Source of the DNA: Terrimonas sp.
Lineage (GTDB): Bacteria > Bacteroidota > Bacteroidia > Chitinophagales > Chitinophagaceae
Assembly: GCF_003075435.1 (NCBI RefSeq)
Contig: NZ_QCZJ01000002.1
Span: 1-64,000 of the forward strand
Direction: 5' to 3'
Length of the DNA stretch: 64,000 nucleotides
A program made the translations under genes and the position numbers. Below are positions 1 to 63,727 of the stretch, one piece after another. Every line of letters starts with the position of its first letter. Within the stretch, counting starts at the first letter, position 1. Below the pieces are notes generated by a model, which saw only the letters and a list, made by a program, of their open reading frames with translations, searched no databases and was not told the origin of the DNA.

Positions 1-248
1 TAGCTGTAAATCAAATAAGTTTATAATAATCCACAATTAAAATGTGGATTGTAAAAAGAAAAAAAGTAACAAAAAAAAGAAAAAGGGTAATAGTAGTAAT
101 AGTGTCTACTTTTTTCAGGACATGACAATAAGGTCAAACGGTAAAACAGGCTGTATACCTTTTAACGAAGTATAAGGTGTAAGGTATCTTTGTCGTGTTA
201 AACCTGCTAACGGCTGATACCTGACGGCTGATAGCTATCGGCTGGCCG
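1..248. other. Left-edge spacer with heptamer array
   Basis: No gene is visible. An 8-bp hairpin (AATCCACA/TGTGGATT) lies at 28-50, without a T-run that would make it a convincing terminator. Short heptamer-like words (AGGTGTA, AGGTATC) occur at about 171-190. A clearer array of seven 7-nt units of the GCTGATA type runs 206-254. It contains the TAG stop codon (249-251) of the minus-strand gene that follows. Confidence 0.6.
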
Positions 249-254
249 CTATCT
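206..254. repeat. Heptanucleotide array, GCTGATA type, 7 units
   Basis: Seven consecutive 7-nt units in unbroken phase, with variants such as GCTGATA, CCTGACG and GCTATCG. The last unit contains the stop codon of the CrtC-like gene. The same word family recurs at 6316-6343, 11832-11873, 53943-53970 and 56576-56617. Confidence 0.7.
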
Positions 255-1853
255 TTTCACAAATTTCAATACTACCGAACGTTCCGGTAAGTACAGTTTG
301 AGAAAATACACTCCGGTTGGCAAAAAGCTCACATCAATCTTAGAGGAAAATAAATTGCCTGGTATTACACGGATTATCCGCCCGTTTATATCAATAATTT
401 TACCTTGTGTAACACTATTGGCAGGTAAGCCGGGTTGTAAAAACAAATCGTTGCTTACAGGGTTTGGAAACAATTTAATTTGTAAGCTGTCAGCATTGCC
501 CGCCATTACTGCCGATGGAGATGTACTGACAGCAGTACCTTTTAACTTTCCGTCTATTGAATTGGCAGTAATTTTAAACCAAATGCTATCATCATTGGAA
601 AGGCTGGAATTATTCCATAGATAAAAAGTATCTTTTACCCCCTGTGCAATTGGTGTAAAGGTTACCTTGTTGTTTACACTGTATTCAATATCGTAGGTTA
701 CAGGGCGTCCTTCATCGGGATTCAGCAATTGCCACGAAATGGGCAAAGCAGCGTTAAATATTTCACCGGCGGGTTTTTTAATAGCAAGCGCCGGATGTTC
801 ATAAGGATGCAATAGTTCGGCAAAGCCAATGCCCGTAACGGCCTGTCCATTTACTGTTCCGGTAATGGTGGTGGCTCCTTCAAAAAACCTGAAAGGCAAT
901 GTAATTTCACTATTATTATTATTTGATGTGATCGTTAAATCGAGGTTGTTTTTCGCAGAAGTCAGCCTCCATTTAGCTGAGTAGCACATGGCGCTGTCGG
1001 GCATCCAGTTAAAAGCCAGTCGCTCAATTGTAAAATCGCTGATGGTGTATTGGGTAGATTCATCAACATAGGCTGCCAATATCCGGTATTTTTCATTATC
1101 GGGTATTGTATTTTCAACGGTAAAAATATTCCATAGATTTATATCCATGCCATTTGATAACTGCAACTGGAACCATTCATACTTTTCTCCCGTAAACGGG
1201 TTGAAATTTCCATATTGCCTGTCAATCCAGGAGGTCCCGGTCACGTCTTCGGTAATTCCGTTAAGGGTTAATTTCCCGGTAACCGTATTACGGGTTTGGG
1301 AATAATAGTAGGTGTAATTCTCGGCGCCCTGATCAAGATACCCATCATCACCAGGCAGTAAGGGACGTTTTAAACTTTTACAATCCAAATTCAATCCACC
1401 GCTTGCAGATGCTGCCTTGATAGTATATTCAAACGGAATTAAATTACCATTACCATCTGTTTTATTACTCCAGCTTTCATTAGCCCTGTTATAAACCGAT
1501 GCCTGAATATCAAGGTGTGTGGTAGACAGTGTGGTGTAATGAAGCGGCCTTGTTTCTTCATAAACTTTTCCTGAAGCATCATCTTCGATATTCAATATCC
1601 TGAAACCATCAAAACCGCTTGCCGGAAAGTAAAAATAAGTCAGCATGTAACTGTAGGTCTTGCCGGAATTAACTCCTTTAAGCTGCCCTGAAGTATACCA
1701 CCATTCCACAGGTTCTGTACTGTGCCGCCCCTCATCCTTAGGAAAAGAAACCTTACTTCCGGCAGGTGTATAAGGAAATGTTTTCCAGTCCTGTGAATAA
1801 CTATATGAGCTTAAGAATGTTGTTGCAATTAAAAGGAGGTAAATACATTTCAT
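249..1853 (-). CDS. Secreted CrtC/lipocalin-like protein with type IX sorting domain
   Basis: A 534-residue protein with an N-terminal signal peptide (MKCIYLLLIATTFLSSYSYSQ region). Residues of about 25-350 resemble the hydroxyneurosporene synthase (CrtC)/AttH lipocalin-like fold: an EPVEWWYTSG motif near the start and a TGTSWIDRQYGNF motif in the middle are typical. A fibronectin-III-like stretch follows at roughly 360-450. The last ~75 residues form a type IX secretion C-terminal sorting domain (LFPNPVSN start, GVYFLKL, final KFVKR). It is therefore probably exported and attached to, or released from, the outer membrane. The substrate is unknown; the family includes carotenoid hydratases and uncharacterised secreted proteins. 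The stop codon lies in a heptamer array. It stands alone on the minus strand. Confidence 0.8.
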   Translation of the reverse strand: MKCIYLLLIATTFLSSYSYSQDWKTFPYTPAGSKVSFPKDEGRHSTEPVEWWYTSGQLKGVNSGKTYSYMLTYFYFPASGFDGFRILNIEDDASGKVYEETRPLHYTTLSTTHLDIQASVYNRANESWSNKTDGNGNLIPFEYTIKAASASGGLNLDCKSLKRPLLPGDDGYLDQGAENYTYYYSQTRNTVTGKLTLNGITEDVTGTSWIDRQYGNFNPFTGEKYEWFQLQLSNGMDINLWNIFTVENTIPDNEKYRILAAYVDESTQYTISDFTIERLAFNWMPDSAMCYSAKWRLTSAKNNLDLTITSNNNNSEITLPFRFFEGATTITGTVNGQAVTGIGFAELLHPYEHPALAIKKPAGEIFNAALPISWQLLNPDEGRPVTYDIEYSVNNKVTFTPIAQGVKDTFYLWNNSSLSNDDSIWFKITANSIDGKLKGTAVSTSPSAVMAGNADSLQIKLFPNPVSNDLFLQPGLPANSVTQGKIIDINGRIIRVIPGNLFSSKIDVSFLPTGVYFLKLYLPERSVVLKFVKR

Positions 1854-2340
1854 TCAAAACAGTTTTCAGATAGTGCATTAATGGTAAAATAATTGCAATC
1901 ATTTTACTATTCGTACGGCGGCACTAAGGTACTACGACTAAAGGAGATTTTATAGGATTACGGGTGTTTTATTCAAAGCTGTGGTGTATGTGTCATGTTT
2001 TCGTATTCAAAAATATGTGCTGGCATCGTCCAGTCCTCTCCTTAGGTCGGGGTAACAAGCTATAGTACAATGTTGAGCATTAGTACAAATATTAAACAAT
2101 CGTACTAATGTTCAGCAGAATTTCTACAGCTTGACACCCCGACCTAAGGAGGGGGCTATACCCGGCACAGCCTTACATATGTTAAATTCTTAAACAGGCA
2201 TTGCATAAATAGCCTGGCTATTATTATAGTGAGACAAGTAATGCTTAGGCAGCAGGTCAACCAACACATAACGCCAGTGCCGCAGACCATACTTGCCTTT
2301 TTAAAGAAAAGCTGGTTATATTTACATAACAACCTTACAT
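1854..2340. other. Intergenic region holding a large imperfect palindrome
   Basis: This 487-bp spacer between divergent genes has no credible coding sequence. It contains a long imperfect palindrome at about 2036-2153, listed separately. The word CCTTACATATG occurs twice (near 2171 and at 2332-2342), the second time overlapping the start codon of the next gene. No clear TTTG/TAnnTTTG promoter was found. Confidence 0.5.
2036..2153. repeat. Imperfect palindrome sharing a core with 54590-54690
   Basis: The left arm (from about 2036, containing CCTTAGGTCGGGGT) and right arm (to about 2153, containing ACCCCGACCTAAGG) are inverted copies about 49 nt long with mismatches. They surround a 15-nt AT-rich loop. 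The inner part holds GTACTAATG and TTGAGCATTAGTAC words. On the opposite strand these read GTACTAATGCTCAAC, which is also found in a second composite palindrome at 54636-54650. No transposase is present. It could be a REP-like or MITE-like dispersed element or a structured RNA. Confidence 0.6.
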
Positions 2341-3315
2341 ATGATCAAAAATCCGATAATCACCGTAGTGTTTCTTTTATTAATCCTGATATCCTGCACG
2401 AAACAAAATGATGATCCTCCTCCTGTGCAAAATGTAGACTCCCTGGGGGTTGGATGGAAAAAAGTTGCAATTGGTGAGGGGAGACAAACAAGTGATATCT
2501 GGTTTTCTGGCAATACCGGATTTTTGGTTGGAGGACATGAAATTCTGAAGTCGGATGATTCCGGCGATACATGGAATGTTGTGCTGAATACAAAATCCCC
2601 GGTTTTTAATGTAAGCATGGGCGGTCCACAGAATATTATGGCCATTGGCTACCCCCAAACGATTTATTATTCCAACGATGCAGGGGCATCATTTGATAGT
2701 ATAGCGTTACAGGACAAACAACTGAACGAAATATTTTGTATCAATTCAACGGTTGCATATGCAATTGGATATGATCTCTGGAAGACATCTGATGCCGGAA
2801 AGAATTGGCAAAAAATATATAGTTTTCCTATTTATAATGAAAGATTATACCGTACTGTTCATTTCATTAATGAACTTGAAGGATGGGCAATCGCCGGGAG
2901 AAATCTGACGGAAGTAGGAGTGTATAATACGCAGGATGGAGGAAATAGTTGGCAGTTCCTGGATAGCGGACTGGTAAAATTTGGTTTGAATAGCCTTTTC
3001 TTTACCGATAATATGATTGGCTATTCCGGTAATGGTTCACAGGTTTTGAAAACAATGGATGGTGGGTCAACCTGGGAAATTATAAAAGGCGGTGTAAGTG
3101 GATTCGTGGATACACATTTCTTTTCTTCGGAAAGTGGATATGTCTCCGGAGATAAAAAGATATACAAAACTATTGACGGAGGTCTGCATTTTACAACAGA
3201 AGTCAGTTTAAGTGCGACAAATGATGATGCAAAAGTAGTTGAAATATATTTTACTGATCCGGATAAGGGTTGGGCTTGCGGATACAAAGGGTATATACTG
3301 AAATATCAGAAGTAA
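2341..3315 (+). CDS. BNR/Ycf48-like repeat lipoprotein
   Basis: A 324-residue lipoprotein. The N-terminus is a hydrophobic segment followed by the lipobox ILISC (Cys about residue 19). The rest carries at least six Asp-box/BNR-like repeats with the pattern S/T-x-D-x-G-x-x-W/F (SDDSGDTW, SNDAGASF, TSDAGKNW, TQDGGNSW, TMDGGSTW, TIDGGLHF). These predict a beta propeller like the Ycf48 photosystem assembly factor or sialidase-type folds. No catalytic residues of a sialidase were identified, so the function is unknown. It probably sits in the outer membrane or periplasm. A hairpin lies between it and the convergent iolE gene. Confidence 0.75.
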   Translation: MIKNPIITVVFLLLILISCTKQNDDPPPVQNVDSLGVGWKKVAIGEGRQTSDIWFSGNTGFLVGGHEILKSDDSGDTWNVVLNTKSPVFNVSMGGPQNIMAIGYPQTIYYSNDAGASFDSIALQDKQLNEIFCINSTVAYAIGYDLWKTSDAGKNWQKIYSFPIYNERLYRTVHFINELEGWAIAGRNLTEVGVYNTQDGGNSWQFLDSGLVKFGLNSLFFTDNMIGYSGNGSQVLKTMDGGSTWEIIKGGVSGFVDTHFFSSESGYVSGDKKIYKTIDGGLHFTTEVSLSATNDDAKVVEIYFTDPDKGWACGYKGYILKYQK

Positions 3316-3338
3316 GCATTATCAATAGCTTACCAACA

Positions 3339-3366
3339 CTATGCATGGCGTCTTCACCACGCATAG
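3339..3366. terminator. Hairpin between convergent genes
   Basis: CTATGC pairs with GCATAG and TGG pairs with CCA around an 8-nt loop, with one mismatch. It sits between the 3' ends of the BNR lipoprotein gene (plus) and iolE (minus). No U-run follows on either strand, so a terminator role is only suggested by position. Confidence 0.35.
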
Positions 3367-3395
3367 TTGTCTCGTCGTCTCCGGGCGACATAGTA

Positions 3396-4298: not shown

Positions 4299-4356
4299 GT
4301 GCTAATTAGAGATTTGAAATTTAATATTTGGATGAAATTGCAATCCGCGTTTGTGA

Positions 4357-4434
4357 TTTATAGTTTTTTGTTGTGGTTTGTGCGCAACGGAAAACCACAA
4401 ACTATAAACCACAAACTTTGTAACCTGCAACTAT
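4357..4434. repeat. Heptamer array with inverted arms at the iolD 3' end
   Basis: Six in-phase 7-nt units (AACCACA, AACTATA types) run 4393-4434, and the last contains the TAG stop codon of iolD (4431-4433). The opposite-sense words at 4357-4379 (TTTATAG, GTGGTTT) make an inverted repeat with 4392-4408. The transcript of the iolD-iolE spacer could therefore fold. Confidence 0.65.
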
Positions 4435-6296: not shown

Positions 6297-6315
6297 CTGA
6301 AATTGTTTTTATGGC

Positions 6316-6343
6316 TATGAGCTGTCAGCTATCAGCTTTCAGC
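6316..6343. repeat. Heptamer array, four units, upstream of iolD
   Basis: Four in-phase units (TATGAGC, TGTCAGC, TATCAGC, TTTCAGC) begin about 20 bp upstream of the iolD start codon. This is the same word family as 11832-11873, which lies just upstream of iolA. Confidence 0.6.
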
Positions 6344-6365
6344 ATTATATTTCAAACAAATGCCT

Positions 6366-6464: not shown

Positions 6465-6516
6465 TCCACATCTCCACATTTTCACATTCCTCCTAACATC
6501 TTCAAATTTTCAAATT
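6465..6516. repeat. Octamer array overlapping the 3' end of the aldolase gene
   Basis: In the sense of the gene, 8-nt units run AATTTGAA (twice), GATGTTAG, a 4-nt insertion, then AATGTGAA, AATGTGGA and GATGTGGA. The TGA stop codon (6482-6484) lies inside one unit. The final ten codons of the gene are also array sequence. Confidence 0.65.
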
Positions 6517-7444: not shown

Positions 7445-7447
7445 CAA

Positions 7448-7517
7448 GTTTATGGTTTATAGTTTTTAGTTTAGGGTTTAAGGTTGTTGCAACTATAAAC
7501 CATAAACATTAAACAGT
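7448..7517. repeat. Heptamer array with perfect 17-bp inverted repeat
   Basis: Ten 7-nt units in continuous phase (GTTTATG, GTTTATA, then after a switch AAACCAT, AAACATT). Arms 7448-7464 and 7491-7507 are exact reverse complements. The array fills almost the whole spacer between the symporter stop (7519-7521) and the aldolase start. Confidence 0.7.
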
Positions 7518-7518
7518 T

Positions 7519-9129
7519 TTACCAAAACACCGAATACAGCGCTACCAATATTCCGCAAATAATTGTTGCGCCTATAACAAATGAGCGGCTGAGACTGAAT
7601 GATGGTAATGCTATTCTCATTTCTTCTGTTGTTTCTTTACGTGGTGTAAGCAGACTGACAGCAATCATTACTACGCACAATACCAGGAATACAAAACCCA
7701 TCCTGTTTAAGAAAGGCACTTCAGGTATCCAGAATTTAAACAACGTTGACAACGGTATTGTTAACAATGCCGTTATTAAAGCGGCATTGGCTGTTGCTCT
7801 TTTCCAGAACATACCAAAAACAAAAATTGCCAGAACCCCGGGAGTGATAAAGCTGGAATACTCCTGGATGAACTGGTATGCCTGTTCGAGTACGCGTAAC
7901 TGTGGTGCGATGAGTGCAGCGATCAGCATAGCTATCCATACGGCGGCACGGCCTACGCGGATCAAATGTTTTTCCGAAGCTTTGGGATTGAAATAGAGCT
8001 TGTATATATCTAATGTAAAGATGGTGGAAATGCTGTTGGCTTTGCCCGCAAGCGATGCCACGATGGCGGCAGTTAATGCTGCGAAGGCAACTCCTTTCAG
8101 TCCACTGGGTAATAAATCAAGTAATACAGGGTAAGCACGGTCTGGCTTTACAATGCCTGCGGCATCAACCATTTCTTTCTGGAACATGCCGTTTTGATGC
8201 AGAACATAAGCGGCTATACCGGGAATAACAACAATAAGCGGTACGAGCAGTTTTAGAAACGCTGCAAATAAAATGCCTTTGCGGGCAGTATTGAGATCAG
8301 CGCCCAGCGTACGTTGAATGATATACTGGTTACATCCCCAGTAGGCGAGGTTATTGATCCACATGGCGCCAATAATTACACTTAACCCCGGCAGGTCTTT
8401 ATAATATGGATTGTCTTCTTTGATCACCATATGGAAATGTGAATCTGCCTGTTTGGTTAGTGTAGAGAACGCACCTAACACGGAGCTGTTGCCGAATTGT
8501 TTGGCAACGAGATCGAGTGCGAGATAGGTAGTGAGCAAACCGCCAACTATTAATACTATTACCTGTATAACATCTGTATAGCCGATTACTTTCATGCCAC
8601 CAATGGTAATGATAACGGCAAAGAGTGATAAGGCTATAACTGCTGCGGTGAAATTTATGCCTGCAGTTACTTCAAGTGCCAGGGCGCCGAGGTAAATAAT
8701 GGAGGTAAGATTAACGAAGACATACAGCAGCAGCCAGAATACTGCCATAGTAGTTGCAACGCCACGGTTATACCGCTGCCTCAAAAATTGAGGCATGGTG
8801 TATATGTTATTTTTAAGGTATACCGGTAAAAAGAAAATAGCTACTACTATCAGCGCAGCAGCGGCCATCCATTCGTAAGAGGATATGGCAAGACCGATAG
8901 CGAAGCCTGAACCTGACATACCGATAAAATGCTCCGCGGAAATATTGGAGGCGATAAGTGATGCGCCTATAGCCCAGAATGTCAGTGAACCTTCTGCCAG
9001 GAAAAAGCCTGAAGCAGTATCTGATTTATTGGTTTTCTTTTTATATATCCAGTACCCATACAGCGCGATAATGATTAAATAAAAGGCGAAAACAATGTAG
9101 TCCAGTGTGTGCAGGCCTGATTGATTCAT
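7519..9129 (-). CDS. Sodium:solute symporter, probable myo-inositol transporter
   Basis: A 536-residue integral membrane protein of the SSS (SGLT-like) family, with about 13-14 hydrophobic segments. Family features include an N-terminal LDYIVFAFYLIIIALYGYW helix, SNISAEHFIGMSGSGFA, the GMKVIGYTDVIQ motif in the middle and CNQYIIQRTLGA. Its position inside the iol operon, between iolG and the aldolase gene, implies sodium-coupled uptake of myo-inositol or a stereoisomer. The family also includes glucose and galactose carriers, so the substrate is inferred from context. It is followed directly by a heptamer array. Confidence 0.85.
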   Translation of the reverse strand: MNQSGLHTLDYIVFAFYLIIIALYGYWIYKKKTNKSDTASGFFLAEGSLTFWAIGASLIASNISAEHFIGMSGSGFAIGLAISSYEWMAAAALIVVAIFFLPVYLKNNIYTMPQFLRQRYNRGVATTMAVFWLLLYVFVNLTSIIYLGALALEVTAGINFTAAVIALSLFAVIITIGGMKVIGYTDVIQVIVLIVGGLLTTYLALDLVAKQFGNSSVLGAFSTLTKQADSHFHMVIKEDNPYYKDLPGLSVIIGAMWINNLAYWGCNQYIIQRTLGADLNTARKGILFAAFLKLLVPLIVVIPGIAAYVLHQNGMFQKEMVDAAGIVKPDRAYPVLLDLLPSGLKGVAFAALTAAIVASLAGKANSISTIFTLDIYKLYFNPKASEKHLIRVGRAAVWIAMLIAALIAPQLRVLEQAYQFIQEYSSFITPGVLAIFVFGMFWKRATANAALITALLTIPLSTLFKFWIPEVPFLNRMGFVFLVLCVVMIAVSLLTPRKETTEEMRIALPSFSLSRSFVIGATIICGILVALYSVFW

Positions 9130-10288: not shown

Positions 10289-10316
10289 GTTTATTGTTTA
10301 TGGTTTGTAGTTAAAG
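10289..10316. repeat. Heptamer array, GTTTATG type, four units
   Basis: Four in-phase units (GTTTATT, GTTTATG, GTTTGTA, GTTAAAG) immediately upstream of the iolG start codon. Confidence 0.6.
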
Positions 10317-10328
10317 CCTCAACTCATT

Positions 10329-10360
10329 TTCAAATTTTTAAATTCCCACATTCTCACATT
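10329..10360. repeat. Octamer array at the iolA stop codon
   Basis: Four in-phase 8-nt units, read in the iolA sense as AATGTGAG, AATGTGGG, AATTTAAA, AATTTGAA. The TAA stop codon of iolA (10359-10361) overlaps the first unit by two bases. Confidence 0.65.
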
Positions 10361-11825
10361 AAAATTTCCTCGTCCACTCTTTCAGCCATCGTTCAATCAC
10401 TACCTTGGTTTGTGTGAAGAATTCAACAGCATGCTTGCCCTGTCCGTGCAGGTCGCCGAAGAAGCTTTCCTTCCAGCCGCTGAATGGAAACTGAGCCACC
10501 GGCGCAGCCACACCTATATTGATACCGATATTACCTGCATCCGCTTCATTCCTGAATTTACGTGCATGCAAACCGCTGCTGGTAAATATGCAGGCCATAT
10601 TGCCATATTTATTTCCGTTTACATACGCAATAGCATCATCAATGGTATTAATATGCGCAAGGCTCATTACCGGTCCAAAAATTTCTGTTCCGGCTAATTC
10701 ACCATTGAGCGGTAATCCTTCAATAATGGTAGGCTGAACAAAATTACCTTTTTCGTAACCCGGTATTTTTGCATTACGGCCATCTACCAATACTTTTCCT
10801 CCTTCGCCAATACCTTTTTCTATTAAACCATTAATACGTGTTTTACTTTCTGGTGTAATAACCGGTCCCATCAATACATTTTCATCCAATCCAAAACCGG
10901 TTGTTCGTTTTTTTGCACTTTCCACCAGGCTTTCTGTAATGTTTTTATGTTCGCCAACGGTAATAATGGTTGATGCCGCCAAACAACGCTGACCAGCGCA
11001 GCCATATACACTGTCTATTATAATTTGCGTGGTAACATCTATATCTGCATCAGGCAGAATAATCACGGGGTTTTTAGCACCTCCTTGTGCCTGCACTCTT
11101 TTACCGTTTGCCGCGCCCCTGCTGTATACATAACGGGCAACATTAGACGAACCCACAAAGCTGATGGCCTTAATGCCCGGATGATTGAGTATACCATCCA
11201 CAATCGCTTTTCCGCCATGTACCATATTAATTACACCGGCAGGAAGATCCAACTTATGCACCAGTTCCATTACTTTCGACATGGTGAGCGGAACTTTTTC
11301 AGAAGGCTTGATGATAAATGTATTGCCGCAGGCAATAGCATATGGCAGGAACCAAAAAGGTATCATGCCCGGAAAATTGAAAGGAGAGATACAGGCGCAA
11401 ACACCCAGCGGCTGGCGAATCATGTATTCATCAATACCCGTGGCGATGTCTTCAGAAAAATCGCCCTGCATTAAGGCAGGTATGCCACAGGCATTTTCTA
11501 CATTTTCTATAGCACGCACCCATTCAGCTTTTGCTTCTACATAAGTTTTACCTGATTCCAGCGTAATGGTACGCGACAGCTCATCAATATTTTCTTCGAG
11601 GAGTCTTTTTAGCTGAAAAAGGTATTGTATCCGCTTGCCCGCAGGTATTCTTTTCCATGTTGCATAAGCGGTTTCTGAAGATCTTACGGCAGCGTCAACA
11701 TCTGCGGCCGTGCCTGCAGGTACCAATGCCATCACTTCCTGGCTGGCAGGGTTTACCACGTTCCAGTAATCCGTAGCGCTACTTGCTACCCACTGCCCGT
11801 TAATGTAGTTTTGTAATTTGTTCAT
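10359..11825 (-). CDS. iolA: CoA-acylating methylmalonate/malonate-semialdehyde dehydrogenase
   Basis: A 488-residue aldehyde dehydrogenase of the MmsA/IolA type. It converts malonate semialdehyde with CoA and NAD+ to acetyl-CoA and CO2, the last step of inositol catabolism; many members also use methylmalonate semialdehyde. Visible motifs are the cofactor-binding [15 protein letters not shown] region (about 147-161), [12 protein letters not shown] (223-234), the catalytic Cys281 in [11 protein letters not shown], and EIFGPVMSL. The QRC context and C-terminal [12 protein letters not shown] are characteristic of MmsA rather than of hydrolytic aldehyde dehydrogenases. The stop codon touches an octamer array. 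Confidence 0.92.
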
Positions 11826-12207
11826 TGTATTCAGGAGCTATGAGCAGTCAGCAGTCAGCTATCAGCTATCAGCCTTTTGCCCGGTTATTGATTTTTTTTA
11901 ATATTCGCCTCATCATCTTATCCTTCTTCCCGCGGAGAAGGACGGTGCTGCAGAATAGAGCCCTCACCCTCCTTCTCCCTCTCCCTGCCTACCGGACAGG
12001 CAGGCATGCAATGGCGAGGGAGCGGTGCTGTAGTACAAAGCCAGTCAATATCACTACCATATCAGCTATAAAATATATCCAAACAAAGCATTTAAATATT
12101 TATCACACTTTTAGATTTTCAACCTCCCCCTCTTGCTGTTTTGTCAACCTGATTCAGATATAGGCTCCCCTCTACACGGAGTGGGGAGGGGCTGGGGGTG
12201 AGGGTAT
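11826..12207. other. iolC-iolA spacer, mosaic of intergenic repeats
   Basis: This 382-bp spacer has no coding sequence. It holds, in order: a heptamer array (11832-11873); a CCTCATC...CTTCTTCC...GGAGAAGG palindrome (from 11909); a CCTGCCT/AGGCAGG hairpin (11984-12004); an AT-rich stretch; and a CTCCCC...GGGGAGG palindrome followed by GGGGGTGAGGG (about 12162-12206). The last element reaches to within five bases of the iolC stop codon. Despite its length the spacer separates co-directional pathway genes. Confidence 0.6.
11832..11873. repeat. Heptamer array, six units, upstream of iolA
   Basis: Six in-phase 7-nt units (CAGGAGC, TATGAGC, AGTCAGC twice, TATCAGC twice) start seven bases upstream of the iolA start codon. 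Confidence 0.65.
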
Positions 12208-13423: not shown

Positions 13424-13471
13424 TCCACATTCCCACATTTCCACATTTTCAAATTGCCCAATTTTCAAATT
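13424..13471. repeat. Octamer array containing the iolB stop codon
   Basis: Six in-phase 8-nt units. In the iolB sense they read AATTTGAA, AATTGGGC, AATTTGAA, then AATGTGGA-type units. The TGA stop codon of iolB is part of the first unit. The first three units match those at 15505-15528 after the regulator gene, in the opposite genomic orientation. Confidence 0.7.
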
Positions 13472-14472: not shown

Positions 14473-15495
14473 ATGAATAAACCGGTTACGATAAAAGATA
14501 TAGCAAAAAAATTTAAATGTTCTCCGTCTACCGTATCCAGAGCTTTAAATAACCATCCTTCTATTAATGAGGATACCCGGCGTAATTTGCAGGAGTATGC
14601 GCAGAAAGTAGGCTATCAGCGCAACCAGGTATCGTTGAGCCTCCTGAATAAAAAAACAGCCACCATAGGGGTGATTGTACCCACGATCAATAACTATCAT
14701 GAATCTGCTATTATAGAAGGTATTGAATCCGGATTACAACCTTTGGGATACACGCTTAATATTTGTGTTACCAATGAGCAGTATCTTCTTGAATCAGAAT
14801 ATGTAGAAAAGCTGCTTTCCAACAGGGTAGAAGGTGTTTTTCTCTCCATATCGCAGGAAACTTATGACTCAGGGCACTACGAGCATCTTGAGCAAATAAA
14901 GAAAAGAAGTATACCACTGATTTTTATTGACAGGGAATATGAGGGCTTTGCAACCGGGAGTGTTACTATTGATGATTATCATGGCGCATTTAAAGCGGTG
15001 GAACATCTTATAAAAACAGGAAGAAAAAGAATAGCACACCTGAAAGGCCCGAATGGAATGGCTGTGGCGGAAGAAAGGCTACGTGGATATATAGAATGTT
15101 TGAAAAAACATGATTTGCCTGTAGACGAAGATTTGATATTGAATACCAATTTTAAGGTGGAGAGCGCTATAGAGCCGGTTACAAAACTGATGAATTTACC
15201 TGAATTGCCTGATGCTATTTTTGGCGTAAACGACCAGGTAGCTATCGGCGCAATGAAGGTTATTCGTGATAAAGGATTAAACATACCGGGAGACATAGCT
15301 GTGGCGGGGTTTGATAATGCGCCTATATCTGCGTATATACATCCTTCACTTACATCGGTTGCCCGCCCCGGGCGACAGATAGGTATTGAAGCGGCTAAAA
15401 TATTTACGGATTATCTGCAATCGTCTGAAGCATTACCATCCAGGAATATTGTTCTGCCATCGGAGTTGATTGTGAGGGAGTCGACGGCGGGGTAG
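14473..15495 (+). CDS. LacI-family transcriptional regulator of the iol cluster
   Basis: A 340-residue regulator. The N-terminal LacI helix-turn-helix reads VTIKDIAKKFKCSPSTVSRALN, with the hinge at about residues 45-60. The periplasmic-binding-protein-like effector domain follows (IGVIVPTINNYHESAIIEGI, GVNDQVAIGAMKVIRDKG, VAGFDNAPISAYIHPSLTSV). The ATG at 14473 is preferred; a TTG lies three codons upstream. Position and operator suggest control of inositol catabolism, probably by an inositol-derived effector. Other bacteria use DeoR- or RpiR-type IolR proteins, so this is a functional replacement rather than an IolR orthologue. An octamer array begins 10 bp after the stop. Confidence 0.85.
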   Translation: MNKPVTIKDIAKKFKCSPSTVSRALNNHPSINEDTRRNLQEYAQKVGYQRNQVSLSLLNKKTATIGVIVPTINNYHESAIIEGIESGLQPLGYTLNICVTNEQYLLESEYVEKLLSNRVEGVFLSISQETYDSGHYEHLEQIKKRSIPLIFIDREYEGFATGSVTIDDYHGAFKAVEHLIKTGRKRIAHLKGPNGMAVAEERLRGYIECLKKHDLPVDEDLILNTNFKVESAIEPVTKLMNLPELPDAIFGVNDQVAIGAMKVIRDKGLNIPGDIAVAGFDNAPISAYIHPSLTSVARPGRQIGIEAAKIFTDYLQSSEALPSRNIVLPSELIVRESTAG

Positions 15496-15504: not shown

Positions 15505-15576
15505 AATTTGAAAATTGGGCAATTTGAAAATTTGAAAATGTGTGAGTGTAGAAATGTGAGAATGTGAAAATATAAA
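15505..15576. repeat. Octamer array, nine units, after the regulator gene
   Basis: Nine 8-nt units in perfect phase, drifting from AATTTGAA through AATTGGGC and AATGTGAG to AATATAAA. The first units are an inverted copy of the array at 13448-13471, so the pair brackets iolB and its regulator. Confidence 0.7.
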
Positions 15577-15734
15577 ACGTTAGGCCTGGAATTGCTCAAT
15601 GTTGATGTGGACGATATACTGATTGGGATAGAATTACAGCACTACTCAGTTTTCCATGGAAAGGCAGGTTGGGACGATAGGCTTTAAGGGAGCCTGTTTT
15701 GCCTGAAACTTCCTATCTTAATGCAAATTCTTTT

Positions 15735-38086: not shown

Positions 38087-38187
38087 TCTGTTTTTGTTGT
38101 CGGCACGACAATGTGCAATTCACTGCACTCACTTATTATCTTGCCGGATTTACAAAAACAGGAAAGGAGAGATGTGAGGACTCGTCC

Positions 38188-38270
38188 TTCCCTGCGCAGG
38201 CATTACCCTGATCAGGTTCTACGGGTTTGATCTCAGCCCCCCGATATTAAATCGGGGAACACCCCGGGAA
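38188..38270 (-). promoter_or_regulatory. TPP (THI) riboswitch
   Basis: Read on the minus strand, the aptamer opens with TTCCCGGGGTG and has a variable hairpin (CCCCGAT/ATCGGGG). The invariant GGCTGAGATCAAACCCGT, then GAACCTGATCAGGGTAATGC follow, and the last strand is GCGCAGGGAA, which closes P1. All core elements of the THI box are present. The distance to the receptor start is about 100 nt. GGACGAGTCC follows the aptamer directly, but no intrinsic terminator is visible, so control may act on translation. Confidence 0.95.
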
Positions 38271-38309
38271 TCACTGAGGTTAAATATGTTTTAACCGCGT
38301 TTGCTGGCG

Positions 38310-53025: not shown

Positions 53026-53802
53026 ATGATATCAGCCATTCTTAAAGATAAGCCCACCAAACTATTCATTGCTATTACTGCTTTTTTTGTTGCTAACGCT
53101 TTAATAGCTGAATGTATAGGTGGTAAAATATTTTCTCTCGAGAAATTGTTTGGATTTGAACCTGTAAATTTTACCATATTAGGCTATGGCGGACTGTCTT
53201 TTTCTCTTACCTGCGGGGTATTGCTGTGGCCGCTTGAGTTTGTAATAACAGATATTGTGAATGAATATTACGGACCTAAAGCGGTGAAACGGATAAGTTA
53301 TACAGCCGTAGCATTAATCAGCTACGCGTTTATTATGTTTTATGTAAGCATTCATATTCCGTCGGCAGACTGGTGGCCGGCTTCAAAAAAGCAGGATGGC
53401 ATTGATGACCTGCAACTAGCTTTCAATGGTATATTCGGACAGGGTATGTGGATCATTTTCGGAAGCCTGGTTGCCTTTTTGGTGAGCCAGTTGGTTGATG
53501 TATTTGTATTTCATAAGATCAAGAAGATAACAGGAGAAAAAAAGATATGGCTGAGAGCAACAGGCTCAACATTGGTATCGCAGTTAATAGACAGTTTTAT
53601 TGTGCTTACCATTGCTTTTAAATTCGGTAATAACTGGACATGGAAGCAGGTGATAGCAGTGTGCTGCATGAATTACATGTATAAAGCAACCGTAGCCATA
53701 TTGCTTACCCCGGTTATTTATTGGGCAGAAAAACGAATTGAAAGGTATTTTGGCAGTGAATTAACCATGCAGATGAAGAAAGCGGCAATGGGGAAGATTT
53801 GA
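53026..53802 (+). CDS. yhhQ: Queuosine precursor transporter
   Basis: A 258-residue membrane protein of the VUT/YhhQ (DUF165) family with about six to seven membrane segments. VANALIAECIGGKIFSLE near the N-terminus, VITDIVNEYYGPKAVKRI and LVSQLIDSFIVLTIAF are family landmarks. It imports 7-cyano-7-deazaguanine or 7-aminomethyl-7-deazaguanine, a precursor of queuosine; the last enzyme QueG is encoded at 30753-31688. The TGA stop is the end of the first unit of a long heptamer array. Confidence 0.88.
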   Translation: MISAILKDKPTKLFIAITAFFVANALIAECIGGKIFSLEKLFGFEPVNFTILGYGGLSFSLTCGVLLWPLEFVITDIVNEYYGPKAVKRISYTAVALISYAFIMFYVSIHIPSADWWPASKKQDGIDDLQLAFNGIFGQGMWIIFGSLVAFLVSQLVDVFVFHKIKKITGEKKIWLRATGSTLVSQLIDSFIVLTIAFKFGNNWTWKQVIAVCCMNYMYKATVAILLTPVIYWAEKRIERYFGSELTMQMKKAAMGKI

Positions 53803-53970
53803 AATTTGAGATTGGATATTTGAGATTGGTGGATGAGGATGTGAGGGACGTTTATAGTTTGTAGTTTATGGTTTGTGGTTTCATACGGTAACCTGAAACG
53901 TGAACCTGGAACTTGAGACTTGTAACCTGCAACCAATGATTACTGACAGCTCATAGCCCATAGCTGCCAG
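53796..53970. repeat. 25-unit heptamer array between convergent genes
   Basis: Twenty-five consecutive 7-nt units in unbroken phase. The unit sequence drifts through several word types: GATTTGA, GATTGGT, TTGTAGT, TTGTGGT, TGAACCT, GTAACCT and CTCATAG. The first unit ends with the stop codon of the queuosine transporter gene. Units near the other end contain the stop codon and last six codons of the Nudix gene. It is the longest such array in the window. Confidence 0.75.
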
Positions 53971-54433: not shown

Positions 54434-54764
54434 ATATAGTATATAAGGAGGAAGGTATAGGGTTTAAGGTGTAAGGTGGGAGATCTTGCTTTTAGAAAAA
54501 ATCTAAGGCAAATTGCAACAGCTACAGGAGATTGCTGAAGACATCTTCATTATAAACGAGCAACACGGGAACTTACTATCATCGTTTTTGCGCGGGTGAG
54601 ATACCAGCCTGCGGCAGGCAGGTCTGCCGGGCTTTTGTACTAATGCTCAACTTTTGTACTACTGACCAACAGATTGCTTCACCCGTCACAACATACATTT
54701 AATTCAGGCTTCATCCGGGCGGGTTCGCAAAAACCATAAACTACAAACCATAAACCACAAACTT
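54434..54764. other. Nudix-CorA spacer with composite palindrome and heptamer arrays
   Basis: This 331-bp spacer has no gene. Short AGGTATA/AGGTGTA heptamer words lie at about 54449-54480. A composite palindrome is at about 54590-54690, with outer arms CGGGTGA/TTCACCCG and an inner CCTGC...GGCAGG hairpin. It includes the word GTACTAATGCTCAAC shared with the 2.1 kb palindrome. A five-unit heptamer array (54735-54769) reaches into the corA stop codon. Confidence 0.55.
54590..54690. repeat. Composite palindrome with GTACTAATGCTCAAC core
   Basis: Outer arms near 54592 (CGGGTGA) and 54677 (TTCACCCG) enclose GCCTGCGGCAGGCAGG and TTTGTACTAATGCTCAAC. The last word is present on the opposite strand at about 2070-2088. 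The CCTGC...GGCAGG hairpin is also seen at 11984-12004. Confidence 0.5.
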
Positions 54765-54769
54765 CTAAA
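54735..54769. repeat. Heptamer array at the corA stop codon
   Basis: Five in-phase units (CATAAAC, TACAAAC, CATAAAC, CACAAAC, TTCTAAA). The last contains the TAG stop codon of corA (54765-54767, minus strand). Confidence 0.65.
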
Positions 54770-56575: not shown

Positions 56576-56715
56576 GGTCAGGTATCAGGTGTCAGCTATC
56601 AGCCTTCAGCTTTCAGTTGCAAACGGTTATTAGTTAGGGCTCACAACTTTAAACTACAAACCACAAACAATAAACGCCCCTCACATCCTCATCCACCAAT
56701 CTCAAATTTCAAATC
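56576..56715. repeat. 20-unit heptamer array between dapF and the nucleoside phosphorylase gene
   Basis: Twenty 7-nt units in continuous phase, drifting from GGTCAGG/TATCAGC types through ACTACAA/ACCACAA to ACCAATC/TCAAATT. Its right part is close to the reverse complement of 53796-53866. The TGA stop codon of the nucleoside phosphorylase gene (56709-56711) lies in the last unit. Confidence 0.75.
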
Positions 56716-57584: not shown

Positions 57585-57593
57585 ATCAATATA

Positions 57594-57626: not shown

Positions 57627-57640
57627 CAACCCCGTAAAAT

Positions 57641-57711
57641 GGTCCTGTGGCCGAGTGGCTAGGCAGAGCTCTGCAAAAGCTCCTACAGCGGTTCGAATCC
57701 GCTCGGGACCT
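57641..57711 (+). tRNA. tRNA-Cys (GCA)
   Basis: A complete 71-nt cloverleaf. The acceptor stem GGTCCTG pairs with CGGGACC (one G-T pair). The anticodon stem GAGCT/AGCTC encloses the loop CTGCAAA with anticodon GCA. The T-loop is GGTTCGAATCC. The discriminator base is T (U73), the identity element of bacterial tRNA-Cys. CCA is not encoded. Confidence 0.97.
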
Positions 57712-57810
57712 CCCTTTTCTTTCTCAGTATTTATAGATTTGTGCAATTCCATCCCCATACCTCATATTTAAAAAAAATACAGATTTAAATCAAGAGATTA
57801 TTCCTTAGCG

Positions 57811-57818
57811 TATCTTTG
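57811..57818 (+). promoter_or_regulatory. -7 box candidate upstream of the M43 protease gene
   Basis: TATCTTTG is a perfect TAnnTTTG element about 150 bp before the start codon at 57970. No TTTG lies at the expected -33 position, so this is tentative. Confidence 0.35.
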
Positions 57819-57969
57819 TAAAACTCAGGAAATGAAATCCTCTATCAGCTTCTAATCCACTTGTAATGTCCCAACGAAAGACTCTTGAAGTATTGATTTA
57901 AAGTTATTGGCGTATATATCAGTACGTCAATAAAAAAACGTCAGGTTTATTTCACTTTTTTGCAAGTTT

Positions 57970-60900: not shown

Positions 60901-61062
60901 ATTGAAATATTCAGCAACGATATGAAATTATTAGGTATATCCAGAAAAACGACCAGGACCGCTTCTGAAAAGATCAATATACAGCACCTTATTCCCGGAA
61001 ATTATATTGTTCGCCTGAGCTTTGAAGGAAAAACATATGCATTGAAGTTTATTAAGCTTTAA
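57970..61062 (+). CDS. Secreted M43-family metalloprotease with type IX sorting domain
   Basis: A 1030-residue protein. Signal peptide about 1-27. The catalytic domain has the zinc motif HEIGHAFNLYH (His241, Glu242, His245, His251) and a Met-turn segment NFMNYTACNTLFTPGQKERM, the pappalysin-like (M43) metzincin pattern. Asn replaces the usual Gly at position 8 of the motif. Middle regions (about 350-850) are beta-rich, including a DUF-like jelly-roll segment and Calx-beta-like stretch. An SO/FnIII-like LTLQALAVNENDVLLQWQTA segment precedes the type IX C-terminal sorting domain (about 955-1030, SIYPVPAVGYIHINF to LKFIKL). It should be exported and attached to the cell surface or released. Confidence 0.9.
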   Translation: MRRILILHRWWGLFLACFFTFSHAYTQTTCGFDHINTSLKKHFPSVAKSIADNEAAIQQIILQKRKQPGAEKRIMTTYSIPVVVHILHTGEDIGTQNNPTDTKIIEAIDYLNEVYGGTNSMLTPAGVNAAGDIGIRFVLAQRDPDCNPTNGINRVNMSANQDYVANGANYQDVTADVAMKASIIWDKSRYYNIYVVNKINGQDGFEAPFVAGYAYLPNSSAIDGAVMLASHMKRGSTTLVHEIGHAFNLYHPFEGSNGKGECPVGEGDMVDDTEPISRNAGSDGTIDFTCRTGPNPCNNNQPYTIRTENNFMNYTACNTLFTPGQKERMLASLLLEDRKTLITSTAILPTHQSPVCQPKINFEKEYTELERTSYRTIECRSYKDYTINLSISNKPLKQVTAQLFVDTGSTAVENIDFNFPAGKSIVFPAGQYNAQPFKVRVFSDEHYAQPRILKLGFSIDDGTDALKGTAITTMRIVLLPKDEKPSPPGATVSRRVGLYDPEITGTKIFNGEVTSQKSQILYRANELRSAGIVAGNIAGFSFYLQKQTLKPFKNITVKMGHTQYNALVDNGTIYTVSNISTVSSLSSYTTFQGWNYFKFNVPFAWNGVDNIVIEICIDNDKDAGFGLDDMYAFADTGYVDRGNTIFSTNEGCQANFTSVSYYSNGIRPVIQFECIKPANAVADTISVSASGYLGPYAEIYFYDNSSPRKILGKIKNLSYWNYGCTNISIDRCGNTVAAFLNNVKSQFLAQKTFLITPQRNNPDGKYELTLYYTSTEKDGYEQGTGVQWNDIKMIKAHAPVSSVSPENPPPGNIEVVQLYEVNRYGDAYALTARFNTGFSAYGIGVISNAALPVEWLTLQALAVNENDVLLQWQTASEINNSYFEVEKSDDAVNFTVAGRIYSKGNSNTISSYEFLHRNPVASGKIYYRLKQVDNDGRFNYSSTVNVNFDNSTTPSIYPVPAVGYIHINFGKTVLNPVIEIFSNDMKLLGISRKTTRTASEKINIQHLIPGNYIVRLSFEGKTYALKFIKL

Positions 61063-61172
61063 CGCATAAGCTTATTTATATATACTTGTAATAAGACTTA
61101 TAGTACAGGATGGTTGTTTTCATTTATCTTTTTAAATTGTGTTCTTTGTAAATCAAGCTTGCTTTTCCACAA

Positions 61173-63659
61173 ATGAAATCCTTGAAAGTTTTATTTACCG
61201 GTCAAATTATTTCAACCAGTTCTGCGAAGTTTTTCGTAAAAAGTTTTGCAGTGCTATTTGCAGTGTCTGTGCTTTTTGCTGTGCCGGGTATGGCAGAGCC
61301 AACTGAAGAAGTTGCTAAAGAGCCCGTTTTTTGGCTTTGGGCTTTTTTAGGACGGCTGCACCCCATGATTGTTCACTTCCCTATCAGTTTATTGTTTATT
61401 GCATTGTTCATGGAATTGTTGGGCAGAAAATCCGGCAAGTACAATGTTGCAATAAAAATGCTGGTTTACACAGGCGCAGCCTCTGCTGTTCTGTCTGTAA
61501 TACTTGGATTACTATTAGCAGGCACCGAAGAATATGGAAGTGATGTATTCTCTATTCATAAATGGACAGGAATTGCTACAATGGTTCTTGGATTGCTTAG
61601 TGCGGCTGCTTATGCATTTTCGAACAGAACTGTACAACGGACACTGCTTACTTTTACAGTACTTGGAGTAACCATAGCAGGACATTATGGAGCATCGCTT
61701 ACGCATGGTGAAGACTACCTGACAAGCGTTTTGCCTGGTAAAGATGCTCCGGGAGAAGGACAAACCACCGCGGCTAATTTTGTGCTAACCGCACAAGCCG
61801 GCCCATTAAATGAAACACAGATACAGGAACTGAACCTGCAGGTGAGAACAATTCTTGCACATAATTGTTACAATTGTCATGGCTCTGCAAAAGTAAAGGG
61901 TGAGTTAAGGCTGGATTCAAAAGAAGCGATTTTTAAAGGCGGTGAGCATGGCAAAGTAATTGTTCCGGGCGATGTACATACAAGCGAGTTATTGCGCCGT
62001 ATCAAACTTCCGCGAAGCGATAAGGAAGCAATGCCTACCAAAGGCAAAGCCCTGAGCAAAGAAGAAATTGCTGTTATTGAATATTGGATCAAACAGGGTG
62101 CTCCCTGGCCAAGCGGTGAGCTAAAGAGTTTATACAGGGTGGCTGAGTTAGCCCCGCGCCTTCCAAAAATTCCGGTAGTAACAGGTGATCTTAGCAATCC
62201 GGTAGATCTTTTTGTAAATGATTACTTTAAAAAAAATAAAATAAAATGGGTAGCGCCTGTTGATGACCGAACATATATCAGGCGTGTGTACATTGACGTT
62301 ACAGGGCTTTTGCCACCCCCTGATTCAATAGATGCTTTTCTTAAAGATGCAGACCCGGGCAAACGTTCAGCATTGGTTAGCCGGTTGCTTACCCGCGATG
62401 ATGATTATGCCCAACACTGGCTCACATTCTGGAATGATGCGTTGCGTAATGATTATACCGGCACAGGTTATATTACAGGAGGCAGATGGGATATCACCAA
62501 ATGGTTGTATGCTTCTTTAAAAGAAAATAAACCATATAATGAATTTGTAAGGCAATTGGTTAGCCCAGATAAAGAATCGCAGGGTTTTGTAAAAGGTATT
62601 AAATGGAGAGGAACGATTAACTCAAGTCAGCGTACAGAAATGCAGGCTGCGCAAAATGTTGCCCAGGTATTTTTAGGGTTAAACCTGAAGTGTGCGTCAT
62701 GCCACGATAGCTTTATCAGCGATTGGAAACTGGAAGACTCATACGCTTTTGCTAATTTGTTCAGCGATAGCATACTCGAAATTAACCGTTGCGACAAACC
62801 AACCGGCATTATGGCGCCACGGCGTATGCTGTATAAAGAATTAGGTGAAATTGATACCAATGCTGTTACGCAGGAGCGCCTTAAACAGCTTGCAGATCTG
62901 CTGGTGCAACCTAAAGACGGGCGACTGTATCGTACATTGATAAACAGGATATGGGCACAGTTAATGGGGCGCGGAATAGTGGAGCCGGTTGATGTAATGG
63001 ATAATGCTCCCTGGAGCCAGGATCTGCTGGATTGGCTTGCATATGATTTTGTTGAAAACGGATATGATATCAAAAAACTCATTTATAAGATACTTACTTC
63101 GAAAACATATCAGCTTCCTTCAGTTGGTGTTAAAGAACCAGAGGAGATAATGTCGCCTAATTATGTATTTAACGGAATGCTGCGCAGAAGACTGACCGCA
63201 GAAGAATTTTCAGATGCGGTAAGTGTTGCCATACAACCAGTTTATGCTGATAGCATGGCTGTATTTAAATTGTTGCCGGAAGATTTTAACAGGAATATCC
63301 CTTTTGCAAGGGCATCTCTTGTAAAGAATGATCCTTTCTTAACTGCACTTGGCAGACCGAACCGGGAAACGGTTTCTACCAGTCGTACCTCGCAGGCAAG
63401 TTTATTGCAGGCATTAGAATTAACCAATGGTTCAAAATTTAATGATGCCATGAAGCATGGCGCAGCTAAATGGAAAAACAAATATCCTGATACTAAAACA
63501 TTGGTGAAGGAAGTTTACCGGAGTGCCATAGGCAGATTGCCTGGTAAAGCTGAAGAAGAAGTGGCAGAAAAAGCATTAGGCAATAATCCGGCAGAAGCGG
63601 CAATACAGGATTTTATGTGGGCAATGGCCCTGCATCCGGAGTTTCAGCTGATATACTGA
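61173..63659 (+). CDS. PSD1/DUF1549/DUF1553 cytochrome c protein with DUF2231 membrane domain
   Basis: An 828-residue protein. The N-terminal ~185 residues carry four or five membrane helices of DUF2231 type (LHPMIVHFPISLLFIALFME). A planctomycete-type cytochrome c domain follows (heme motif CYNCH at 232-236, then MPTKGKALSKEEIAVIEYW with the distal Met). DUF1549 (about 345-560) contains a second CxxCH (CASCH, 507-511), and DUF1553 (about 575-825) ends the protein. Such proteins are paired with DUF1501 proteins, as here, and are thought to act in extracytoplasmic redox reactions or glycan degradation. The role is unproven. Confidence 0.87.
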   Translation: MKSLKVLFTGQIISTSSAKFFVKSFAVLFAVSVLFAVPGMAEPTEEVAKEPVFWLWAFLGRLHPMIVHFPISLLFIALFMELLGRKSGKYNVAIKMLVYTGAASAVLSVILGLLLAGTEEYGSDVFSIHKWTGIATMVLGLLSAAAYAFSNRTVQRTLLTFTVLGVTIAGHYGASLTHGEDYLTSVLPGKDAPGEGQTTAANFVLTAQAGPLNETQIQELNLQVRTILAHNCYNCHGSAKVKGELRLDSKEAIFKGGEHGKVIVPGDVHTSELLRRIKLPRSDKEAMPTKGKALSKEEIAVIEYWIKQGAPWPSGELKSLYRVAELAPRLPKIPVVTGDLSNPVDLFVNDYFKKNKIKWVAPVDDRTYIRRVYIDVTGLLPPPDSIDAFLKDADPGKRSALVSRLLTRDDDYAQHWLTFWNDALRNDYTGTGYITGGRWDITKWLYASLKENKPYNEFVRQLVSPDKESQGFVKGIKWRGTINSSQRTEMQAAQNVAQVFLGLNLKCASCHDSFISDWKLEDSYAFANLFSDSILEINRCDKPTGIMAPRRMLYKELGEIDTNAVTQERLKQLADLLVQPKDGRLYRTLINRIWAQLMGRGIVEPVDVMDNAPWSQDLLDWLAYDFVENGYDIKKLIYKILTSKTYQLPSVGVKEPEEIMSPNYVFNGMLRRRLTAEEFSDAVSVAIQPVYADSMAVFKLLPEDFNRNIPFARASLVKNDPFLTALGRPNRETVSTSRTSQASLLQALELTNGSKFNDAMKHGAAKWKNKYPDTKTLVKEVYRSAIGRLPGKAEEEVAEKALGNNPAEAAIQDFMWAMALHPEFQLIY

Positions 63660-63727
63660 ATAGTGAATAGTCAATGGTGAATGGACGATTCTTGATTGAC
63701 TATTCACTATTGACTATTCACTTTTGT
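63658..63727. repeat. Heptamer array forming a 20-bp inverted repeat
   Basis: Ten in-phase 7-nt units (GAATAGT, CAATGGT, then CTATTCA, CTATTGA). The first unit overlaps the TGA stop codon of the PSD1-type gene. Arms 63663-63682 and 63702-63721 are reverse complements with one mismatch, so an mRNA hairpin is possible between this gene and the next. Confidence 0.7.

Follow-up and report, generated by a model that had tools for sequence, protein, structure and literature searches.

The DNA stretch analysed here, called the window, covers 64,000 nucleotides (G000:C2:1-64000) of a bacterial genome of 6.18 Mb in 82 contigs. The source genome is Agriterribacter-like (Chitinophagaceae), and the iolD protein of the window is 82-96% identical, in the best segment, to proteins of Chitinophagaceae loci including Agriterribacter humi. 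Many spacers of the window contain arrays of short words, i.e. tandem units of 7 nt, or 8 nt in one family, that keep their phase while the unit sequence varies. A preliminary description, made from the letters alone, had pointed out these arrays, and they are real: lags 7 and 8 exceed shuffled sequence, and an array starts within 25 nt past the stop codon in all twelve genes named. We give about an even chance to the reading that they are dispersed short repeats which were copied into spacers, changed in whole-unit steps and tolerated at gene ends.

The twelve genes are those for a CrtC-like protein, iolD, an aldolase, a symporter, iolA, iolB, a LacI-type regulator, a PF02592 transporter, a Nudix protein, corA, a nucleoside phosphorylase and a PSD1 protein. 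Arrays were called with word-family patterns and with a stricter caller that uses the lag only (score 8). By pattern, with at least two units and a start no more than 25 nt past the stop required, a plus-oriented array is found in 12 of 12 genes and a minus-oriented one in none; in plus orientation the words carry TGA, TAG or TAA. The claim that the stop codon lies in or overlaps an array holds by pattern for five genes (iolD, aldolase, iolA, PF02592 transporter, nucleoside phosphorylase) and by eye only for four further ones (CrtC-like, iolB, Nudix, PSD1); it does not hold for corA, the array of which lies 2 nt from the stop. Two more arrays had been placed within about 12 bp of a stop. The distance is 11 nt for the symporter, and for the LacI regulator it is 9 nt with the lag caller and 25 nt with the pattern. 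The lag caller finds five stop overlaps and three more arrays within 15 nt. The arrays are listed below, with the means of detection in brackets (TRF, Tandem Repeats Finder).

207..251, minus strand: AGCNNTN heptad array touching the CrtC-like stop (249-251) from the 3' side (TRF, sequence, pattern and by eye)
4349..4382, minus strand: GTTTRTR-type arm opposite the 4392-4433 array, first arm (+ strand) of the spacer below iolD (sequence by eye)
4392..4433, minus strand: GTTTRTR array plus two GTTNCAR units across the iolD stop (4431-4433) (TRF, lag caller, pattern)
6314..6346, plus strand: AGCNNTN heptad array 5' of the iolD start (TRF, lag caller)
6465..6488, minus strand: octad AATNTGRR array across the aldolase stop (6482-6484) (lag caller, pattern)
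7448..7508, minus strand: GTTTRTR inverted pair lying between the symporter stop (7519) and the aldolase start (pair analysis, lag caller, pattern)
10289..10312, plus strand: GTTTRTR array 5' of the Gfo/Idh start (lag caller)
10326..10361, minus strand: octad array extending into the iolA stop (10359-10361) (lag caller, pattern)
11835..11873, plus strand: AGCNNTN heptad array 5' of the iolA start (lag caller)
13425..13471, minus strand: octad array across the iolB stop (13465-13467), within a 58-nt inverted copy of the post-lacI array (lag caller, BLAST, pattern/by eye)
15505..15577, plus strand: octad array 3' of the stop of the lacI-type regulator (15493-15495) (lag caller, BLAST, pattern)
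53797..53827, plus strand: ATTTGAR array across the PF02592 transporter stop (53800-53802), opening a composite with 53850-53881 and 53890-53934 (lag caller, BLAST, pattern)
53850..53881, plus strand: GTTTRTR array of the 53.8 kb composite (lag caller)
53890..53953, minus strand: AACCTGN (GTTNCAR reversed) array passing into AGCNNTN-like units at the Nudix stop (53951-53953) (sequence, lag caller, by eye)
54454..54478, plus strand: AGGTRTA-type heptad array 5' of the Nudix start (lag caller)
54728..54762, minus strand: GTTTRTR array 2 nt past the corA stop (54765-54767) (lag caller, pattern)
56578..56616, plus strand: AGCNNTN array in the spacer above the diaminopimelate (DAP) epimerase start (lag caller)
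56645..56675, minus strand: GTTTRTR array of the composite 3' of the nucleoside phosphorylase gene (lag caller)
56680..56715, minus strand: ATTTGAR array over the nucleoside phosphorylase stop (56709-56711), within a 65-nt inverted copy of the 53.8 kb array (sequence, BLAST, pattern)
63653..63725, plus strand: GTGAATR inverted pair touching the PSCyt/PSD1 stop (63657-63659) from the 3' side (TRF, lag caller, by eye)

The gap noticed earlier between 15.6 and 53.7 kb is there: 0 of its 18 spacers have an array, as compared to 97 of the 644 sampled spacers of the genome, which is a weak departure (P ~0.05). Array density is uneven in general (over 56 bins of 20 kb the variance/mean is 2.4, and 19 of them are empty where 11.2 would be expected), and two of the three richest 20-kb bins fall in the window.

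Period, word families and order of units

The autocorrelation check suggested earlier was run on a part of the source genome, with dinucleotide shuffles as controls; 7 of the 41 stretches in this sample had been chosen because they contained hits. In 70-nt windows at stop codons lag 7 passes in 37 of 647 cases (0.4 in the shuffles), upstream of starts in 28 of 630 (0.2) and within gene interiors in 0 of 648. In the 724 kb not chosen by hits, 33 of 402 spacers pass at lag 7 (0.0 in the shuffles) and 7 at lag 8 (0.3); all other lags below 14 pass in at most 4 spacers. Periods 7 and 8 alone stand out. The period is 7 nt, and 8 nt in the AATNTGRR family; multiples trail along, and lag 21 is raised merely as a multiple of 7.

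Further results come from five genome samples (G000, G002, G003, G005 and G007; 2024 genes, 2.72 Mb). Contig positions identify G003 as A. humi, G002 and G005 as the metagenome-assembled genomes (MAGs) ACE_BAC11 and ACE_BAC13, and G007 as ACE_BAC12; among the locus labels, L013 stands for G006 and L069 for G008. The lag-7 signal is strong in three of four genome samples (33/402, 26/218 and 19/227 spacers versus 0.0, 0.3 and 0.7) and weak in G007 (2/232 versus 0.3). With a looser threshold the lag-7 spacers number 73/644 in G000, 32/218 in G002, 22/227 in G003, 33/233 in G005 and 6/232 in G007.

The word families were controlled with patterns read backwards, and genome-wide one family pattern gave 99 matches versus 0 for its backwards form. 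Arrays of at least three units that are not mostly coding belong to GTTTNTN (42), AGCNNTN (39), ATTTNAN (30), GTTNCNN (23) and the octad AATNTGNN (10), followed by the minor families GTNAATN (4), AGTNGNN (3), AGGNNNA (2) and CGTNANA (0); two three-unit arrays that are mostly coding were left out of these counts. Strict long patterns miss part of the arrays. The five common families recur across the genus.

Units within an array are not near-identical, and they vary at set positions. The preliminary description saw in this a gradual drift, which is not what the order of the units shows. Identical adjacent units are rarer than expected from shuffling units within arrays (30/389 versus 49.3; 0 of 2000 shuffles as low), identical units two apart are more frequent (50/236 versus 30.1; 0 of 2000 as high), and those three apart are close to expectation (12/83 versus 11.3). 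The apparent drift is an alternation, i.e. identical neighbours are avoided and second neighbours are favoured. Gradual drift is also contradicted by arrays that are unchanged base for base in one species pair (L009/L010, see below).

Orientation at gene ends and in mirrored pairs

Within 25 nt past the stop codon, 123 of the 2024 genes have a plus array and 21 a minus array, and the reversed-pattern control found 12 genes. Upstream of starts the relation is the opposite, with 43 genes for minus and 10 for plus arrays. In codirectional spacers (113 arrays) the stop is overlapped by 19 arrays and has another 24 at a distance of up to 12 nt (43 in total). For the start the numbers are 2 and 18, the latter being about the uniform expectation of 16.7 for 12 nt at either end. 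The stop anchoring claimed earlier is supported, and is incomplete in that minus arrays also precede starts.

The idea that the arrays act as stop-codon donors gains support from stop usage. Genes with a plus array just past the stop end in TAG, TGA and TAA 50, 34 and 39 times, as compared to 365, 408 and 1128 times in genes without such a plus array (p 4e-10). By eye, orthologous iol genes end at the same position, and the array that holds the stop changes its family from one species to another. All eight iolA orthologs end in the same residues, and six of the stops run directly into arrays, of three families as judged by eye; no array is evident past the stop in L011 and L014. Aldolase orthologs differ in the length at which they end, as different arrays supply the stop (by eye). 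The phase of the stop within the unit was given little weight: some families favour stop-bearing phases, but overlap with the stop forces the phase.

Arrays of opposite orientation are arranged with one polarity, which the preliminary description had missed, as it had missed the dispersed copies between spacers. Opposite neighbours within 250 nt in one spacer are plus-then-minus in 39 cases and minus-then-plus in 2 (all families, n=41). For GTTTNTN neighbours within 150 nt the numbers are 25 plus-minus, 3 minus-minus, 1 plus-plus and 0 minus-plus, the seven hit-chosen stretches included. The first arm is rich in G and T, the second in A and C (130 heptad arrays, Spearman -0.44, p 2e-7); the trend has the same sign in all four gene orientations and is near zero in array-free spacers. 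In another family, close pairs were plus-minus by eye in at least 7 of 7 cases (G374) and at least 4 of 4 (G523) among the matches listed.

Arrays of one spacer match each other inverted in 27 of 95 pairs, as compared to 9.2% between spacers, and directly in 8 of 95 as compared to 10.3%. The two arms do not share their variable bases: in one family (25 pairs) agreement at variable positions is 0.537 versus 0.531 for arms of other hairpins, with 232 of 500 shuffles as good. G-U pairs make up 19 of 47 arm mismatches in kind, no excess over the expected fraction of 0.36. Since the variable bases are not common to the arms, foldback copying of one arm from the other was rejected for recent events. 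Folding is somewhat better in the 80 spacers with arrays than in 120 without (p 0.006; codirectional p 0.008), while convergent array spacers fold no better (median z -1.13 versus -1.58); the folding gain from arrays is small. In a search of the window, L200, L123 and L010 against Rfam the arrays matched no family, and just two tRNAs and a thiamine pyrophosphate (TPP) riboswitch were found.

The GTTTRTR pattern can also be biased in strand. All six GTTTRTR matches on the single 5.1-Mb contig G015:C1 are on one strand, and in A. humi the strands are split 28 versus 6, as if orientation tracked replication direction or genes.

Dispersal, turnover and taxonomic spread

BLAST gave 1654 array-type matches between different spacers in the five samples, the best being 177 nt at 89% between two spacers of G002. 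The window contains inter-spacer copies of 58 nt and 65 nt at 89-90%. A 20-kb query from G002 matches 93 places in G005, and of 142 array words in G000, 67 also occur in G002 and 37 in G003. Shared composite sequences are found at non-orthologous places. A close-pair excess (28 versus 15.3) that could have indicated local spread arose only when all repeat types were counted, and local spread was dropped.

A comparison of orthologous spacers gave a mixed outcome, with some near-identical and others replaced. Among 79 orthologous adjacent gene pairs from ten genome pairings, arrays are present in both members in 3, in one only in 10 and in neither in 66. Ten spacers could be compared in the species pair L009/L010: four show 97.7-100% identity (one at 134 of 134 positions), one short spacer is 94.7% identical, two are at 79.5 and 85%, and three are barely alignable (59-72%); third codon positions are 65-84% identical. 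The spacers 11867-12000 and 8699-8984, which are identical or nearly so in this pair though third codon positions differ by 15-35%, may reflect recent spacer exchange, strong constraint or MAG assembly error. In the more distant pair L012/L013 the spacers are 55-88% identical and third positions about 67-80% in well-aligned genes.

One spacer of the G002/G005 pair shows indels of 14, 7 and 18 nt and little other difference; the 18-nt difference is a small GC-rich palindrome within an ATTTGAR array. Palindromes of this kind, 18-20 nt long, GC-rich and starting with CCTG, sit at the same point of the unit in ATTTGAR arrays of L009 (4363, 5978, 8853), L010 (8878) and L200 (~16430), and G002 has one at a site where G005 has none. 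Long dispersed intergenic repeats are also present in G000 (~180-680 nt, 90-97% identity), some with a mirrored CTTTGTG core, at C1:153795-154601, C1:453410-454246, C4:151248-152014 and other sites.

The GTTTRTR pattern occurs in 10 of 12 members of the genus and in 12 of 38 genomes overall, with 4 of 38 for the backwards control. GTTTCAG arrays (up to two changes) are plentiful in three genomes of g116, a genus of another family, and in G322 (156, 59, 187 and 143 matches; control 0, 1, 6 and 0) and scarce in G343 (2) and G202 (0). Order-wide, 18 of 198 genomes match and 12 match the backwards control, so that the result is convincing just in the rich genomes (99, 32, 26 and 15 matches). Phylum-wide the numbers are 27 of 395 and 3. 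At least 120 stretches of viral contigs carry the GTTTRTR pattern, a raw count that may include chance matches.

Origin of the arrays, related systems and further features

The observation as such is confirmed, and its earlier interpretation is partly supported. The data show that the arrays are dispersed, have a common vocabulary and one polarity, are oriented at gene ends, change in steps of whole units and donate stops. These observations can be joined in a scheme in which the arrays are dispersed intergenic elements assembled from a few 7-nt words and one 8-nt word. Because composite sequences are common to non-orthologous places, we infer that whole arrays were pasted into spacers, after which they would gain or lose whole units in steps of 7 or 14 nt. 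As the plus-orientation words contain stops, an array inserted where a reading frame ends could provide the stop and would be tolerated there, and arrays in coding DNA would be removed by selection. A spacer would tend to take a plus array from the left and a minus array from the right, which would give mirrored pairs of one polarity in any gene arrangement. No host function is required in this scheme, and a weak effect of mirrored pairs on mRNA folding is possible.

Several points weigh against copying. Neither a donor-recipient pair nor discrete ends of an element nor target duplications came to light, and spacers with similar arrays lie no closer together than random ones (7 pairs at distances up to 10 kb versus 10.1 expected). 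No enzyme could be linked to the arrays: Y1 transposase genes (PF01797) are present in 14 of 15 genomes, including nine in the array-poor G007, and by eye just 1 of 12 Y1 loci has a vocabulary array within the flanks covered. L009 and L010 are metagenome assemblies of one project, where assembly error could raise spacer identity, and the pair L012/L013, an isolate and an unrelated MAG, lacks the 98-100% spacer class. The word families were derived from the same genomes, and the plus and minus labels were set with the data in view. Moreover, copying alone predicts neither the fixed polarity nor the rarity of identical neighbours.

A worse fit is given by slippage alone, by RNA hairpins under selection and by repetitive extragenic palindromic (REP) elements with their REP-associated tyrosine transposases (RAYT), the last being rejected for the lack of a Y1 link. 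In ordinary microsatellites, heptads would grow at each site by replication slippage and decay by point mutation. This is in line with raised periods limited to 7 and 8, with the 7- and 14-nt whole-unit indels of the G002/G005 spacer, and with a report that in many bacteria no long simple repeat is as common as heptads (Mrazek, cited in PMC4679880). We nevertheless consider it unlikely, as slippage should make neighbours alike, and they are less often identical than in random order (30 versus 49.3). A rapid loss of perfect neighbours could deplete them, but the excess at distance two (50 versus 30.1) would then need 14-nt steps, and local growth does not predict that words recur at unrelated sites and between species. 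Hairpins acting as terminators or intercistronic stabilisers, with both arms kept by selection, are improbable to a similar extent. The excess of inverted over direct matches within spacers and the somewhat better folding would suit them; the arms, however, do not co-vary and have no G-U excess, convergent array spacers gain nothing in folding, many arrays lie inside the iol gene series, which is an odd place for terminators, and Rfam gave no match. If the arrays were bound by a heptad-reading protein that acts in trans on DNA or RNA, which has been proposed for TAACTGA and for the Bacillus constant-size repeats, this could account for a strict period with variable sequence, for several families sharing one period and for the fixed orientation at gene ends. 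Such binding appears very unlikely, as arrays in orthologous spacers are quickly replaced by those of other families and there is no candidate protein.

In telomere-like end addition, both 3' ends at a double-strand break would be extended with the same G/T-rich word and then joined, which gives plus-then-minus. The arrays would then be scars of DNA end repair at breaks in spacers of Bacteroidota, left by an enzyme whose template or memory is as short as two units, the ends being united by an end-joining route with participation of Ku in some lineages. End repair of this kind predicts the polarity, arms of the same family that are independent at each base, and the 14-nt alternation; stops being abundant in the added strand, arrays at gene ends would survive. 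It explains the fixed polarity in all gene orientations and the independent arms best of all, but without an enzyme, and the other family adds the same polarity (by eye, at least 11 of 11 close pairs among the matches listed). We regard both the mechanism and the scar hypothesis as very doubtful all the same. Reverse transcriptase genes do not track the arrays (PF00078 counts do not follow them, and this enzyme was rejected as the writer), and the sole spacer with two paired families lacks the nested order the model suggests, and was the one informative case. That Ku should accompany array-rich genomes was predicted before the Ku searches. In genus g1 the F1 counts are 99, 104, 34, 75, 88, 58 and 1 with Ku and 10, 0, 3, 4 and 0 without (p 0.02), and in genus g116 Ku is present in 8 of the 9 genomes with the pattern and in 3 of the 14 without it (p 0.003). 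However, genome size predicts the arrays as well in g116 (p 0.0004) and nearly so in g1 (p 0.06), relatedness being uncorrected, and elsewhere Ku is found in 5 of the 17 genomes with the pattern and in 11 of the 40 without, the very array-rich G322 lacking Ku. The latter group is negative for one pattern only, and 17 genomes that matched once or twice in the order-wide and phylum-wide searches were excluded from the Ku test. The association is suggestive within two genera, where it is confounded, and fails outside them.

If the copy-in reading is right, about 6% of the sampled genes (123/2024) carry an array of stop words at the 3' end, and a repeat system governed by clear and measurable rules is rewriting the ends of genes and the spacers. 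The rule set, i.e. fixed polarity, independent arms, avoidance of identical neighbours and 7/14-nt steps, makes the origin and spread of heptamers a testable question in a cultured isolate.

Heptamer arrays and repeats of constant size and variable sequence are already known, and it is the rule set that looks new. The short tandemly repeated repetitive (STRR) sequences of cyanobacteria are dispersed intergenic heptanucleotide arrays with degenerate units, and they are not known to follow an orientation rule anchored at stops, to have an inverted polarity that is fixed or to alternate between neighbours. The present arrays resemble heptamer repeats of the STRR and long simple sequence repeat (LSSR) kind in their dominant 7-nt period and their dispersed, intergenic position, and differ in that the units of an array are not near-identical. 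REP elements and bacterial interspersed mosaic elements (BIME) are short, dispersed, intergenic and palindromic, with a fixed polarity at gene 3' ends, and the RAYT are Y1 transposases; unlike them, the arrays are not single GC-rich hairpins, and lack discrete ends as well as a Y1 link. We found no report of stop-anchored, mirrored heptads in Chitinophagaceae, most subscription papers being outside the coverage of the literature search.

TAACTGA repeats occur in Beggiatoaceae, cyanobacteria and some Bacteroidetes, where mobility or gene rearrangement is suspected, and they share with our arrays the 7-nt unit, many intergenic sets per genome, a patchy distribution over taxa, other heptamers nearby and, in some sets, overlap with stop codons (PMC4679880). 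They have one fixed unit placed mostly just before starts, unlike the several variable-unit families seen here, which are mirrored and lie mainly past stops (123 plus arrays past stops as compared to 10 plus and 43 minus before starts). Tandem TAACTGA pairs are absent from the 2.72 Mb of the five samples. The tandem repeats of Bacillus and other Firmicutes reported by Subirana and Messeguer likewise have a constant period, a variable sequence and several families per period in a species, with units of 52 or 20-21 nt instead of 7 and 8; stop anchoring and mirrored polarity are not described in the portion of PMC8161180 that was available. In Chloroflexus aurantiacus, (GATAGRA)n forms many dispersed satellites of one degenerate heptamer, thought to be transposed; they resemble our arrays in number and dispersal and differ in forming a single family, with no gene-end rule in the text at hand (PMC6749651).

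Other features of the window lie beside the arrays. At ~11880-12200, and at 2924-3212 of L009, there is a longer element resembling a miniature inverted-repeat transposable element (MITE), which starts with CCTCACCC and ends with GGGTGAGG; by eye, the spacer of the iol series in which this element lies varies between species. The TPP riboswitch is at 38172-38276 (minus strand) and a tRNA at 57641-57711 (plus strand). The gene at 61173-63659 encodes a PSCyt1/PSCyt2/PSD1 protein, here in a Bacteroidota genome, the families being named from planctomycetes.

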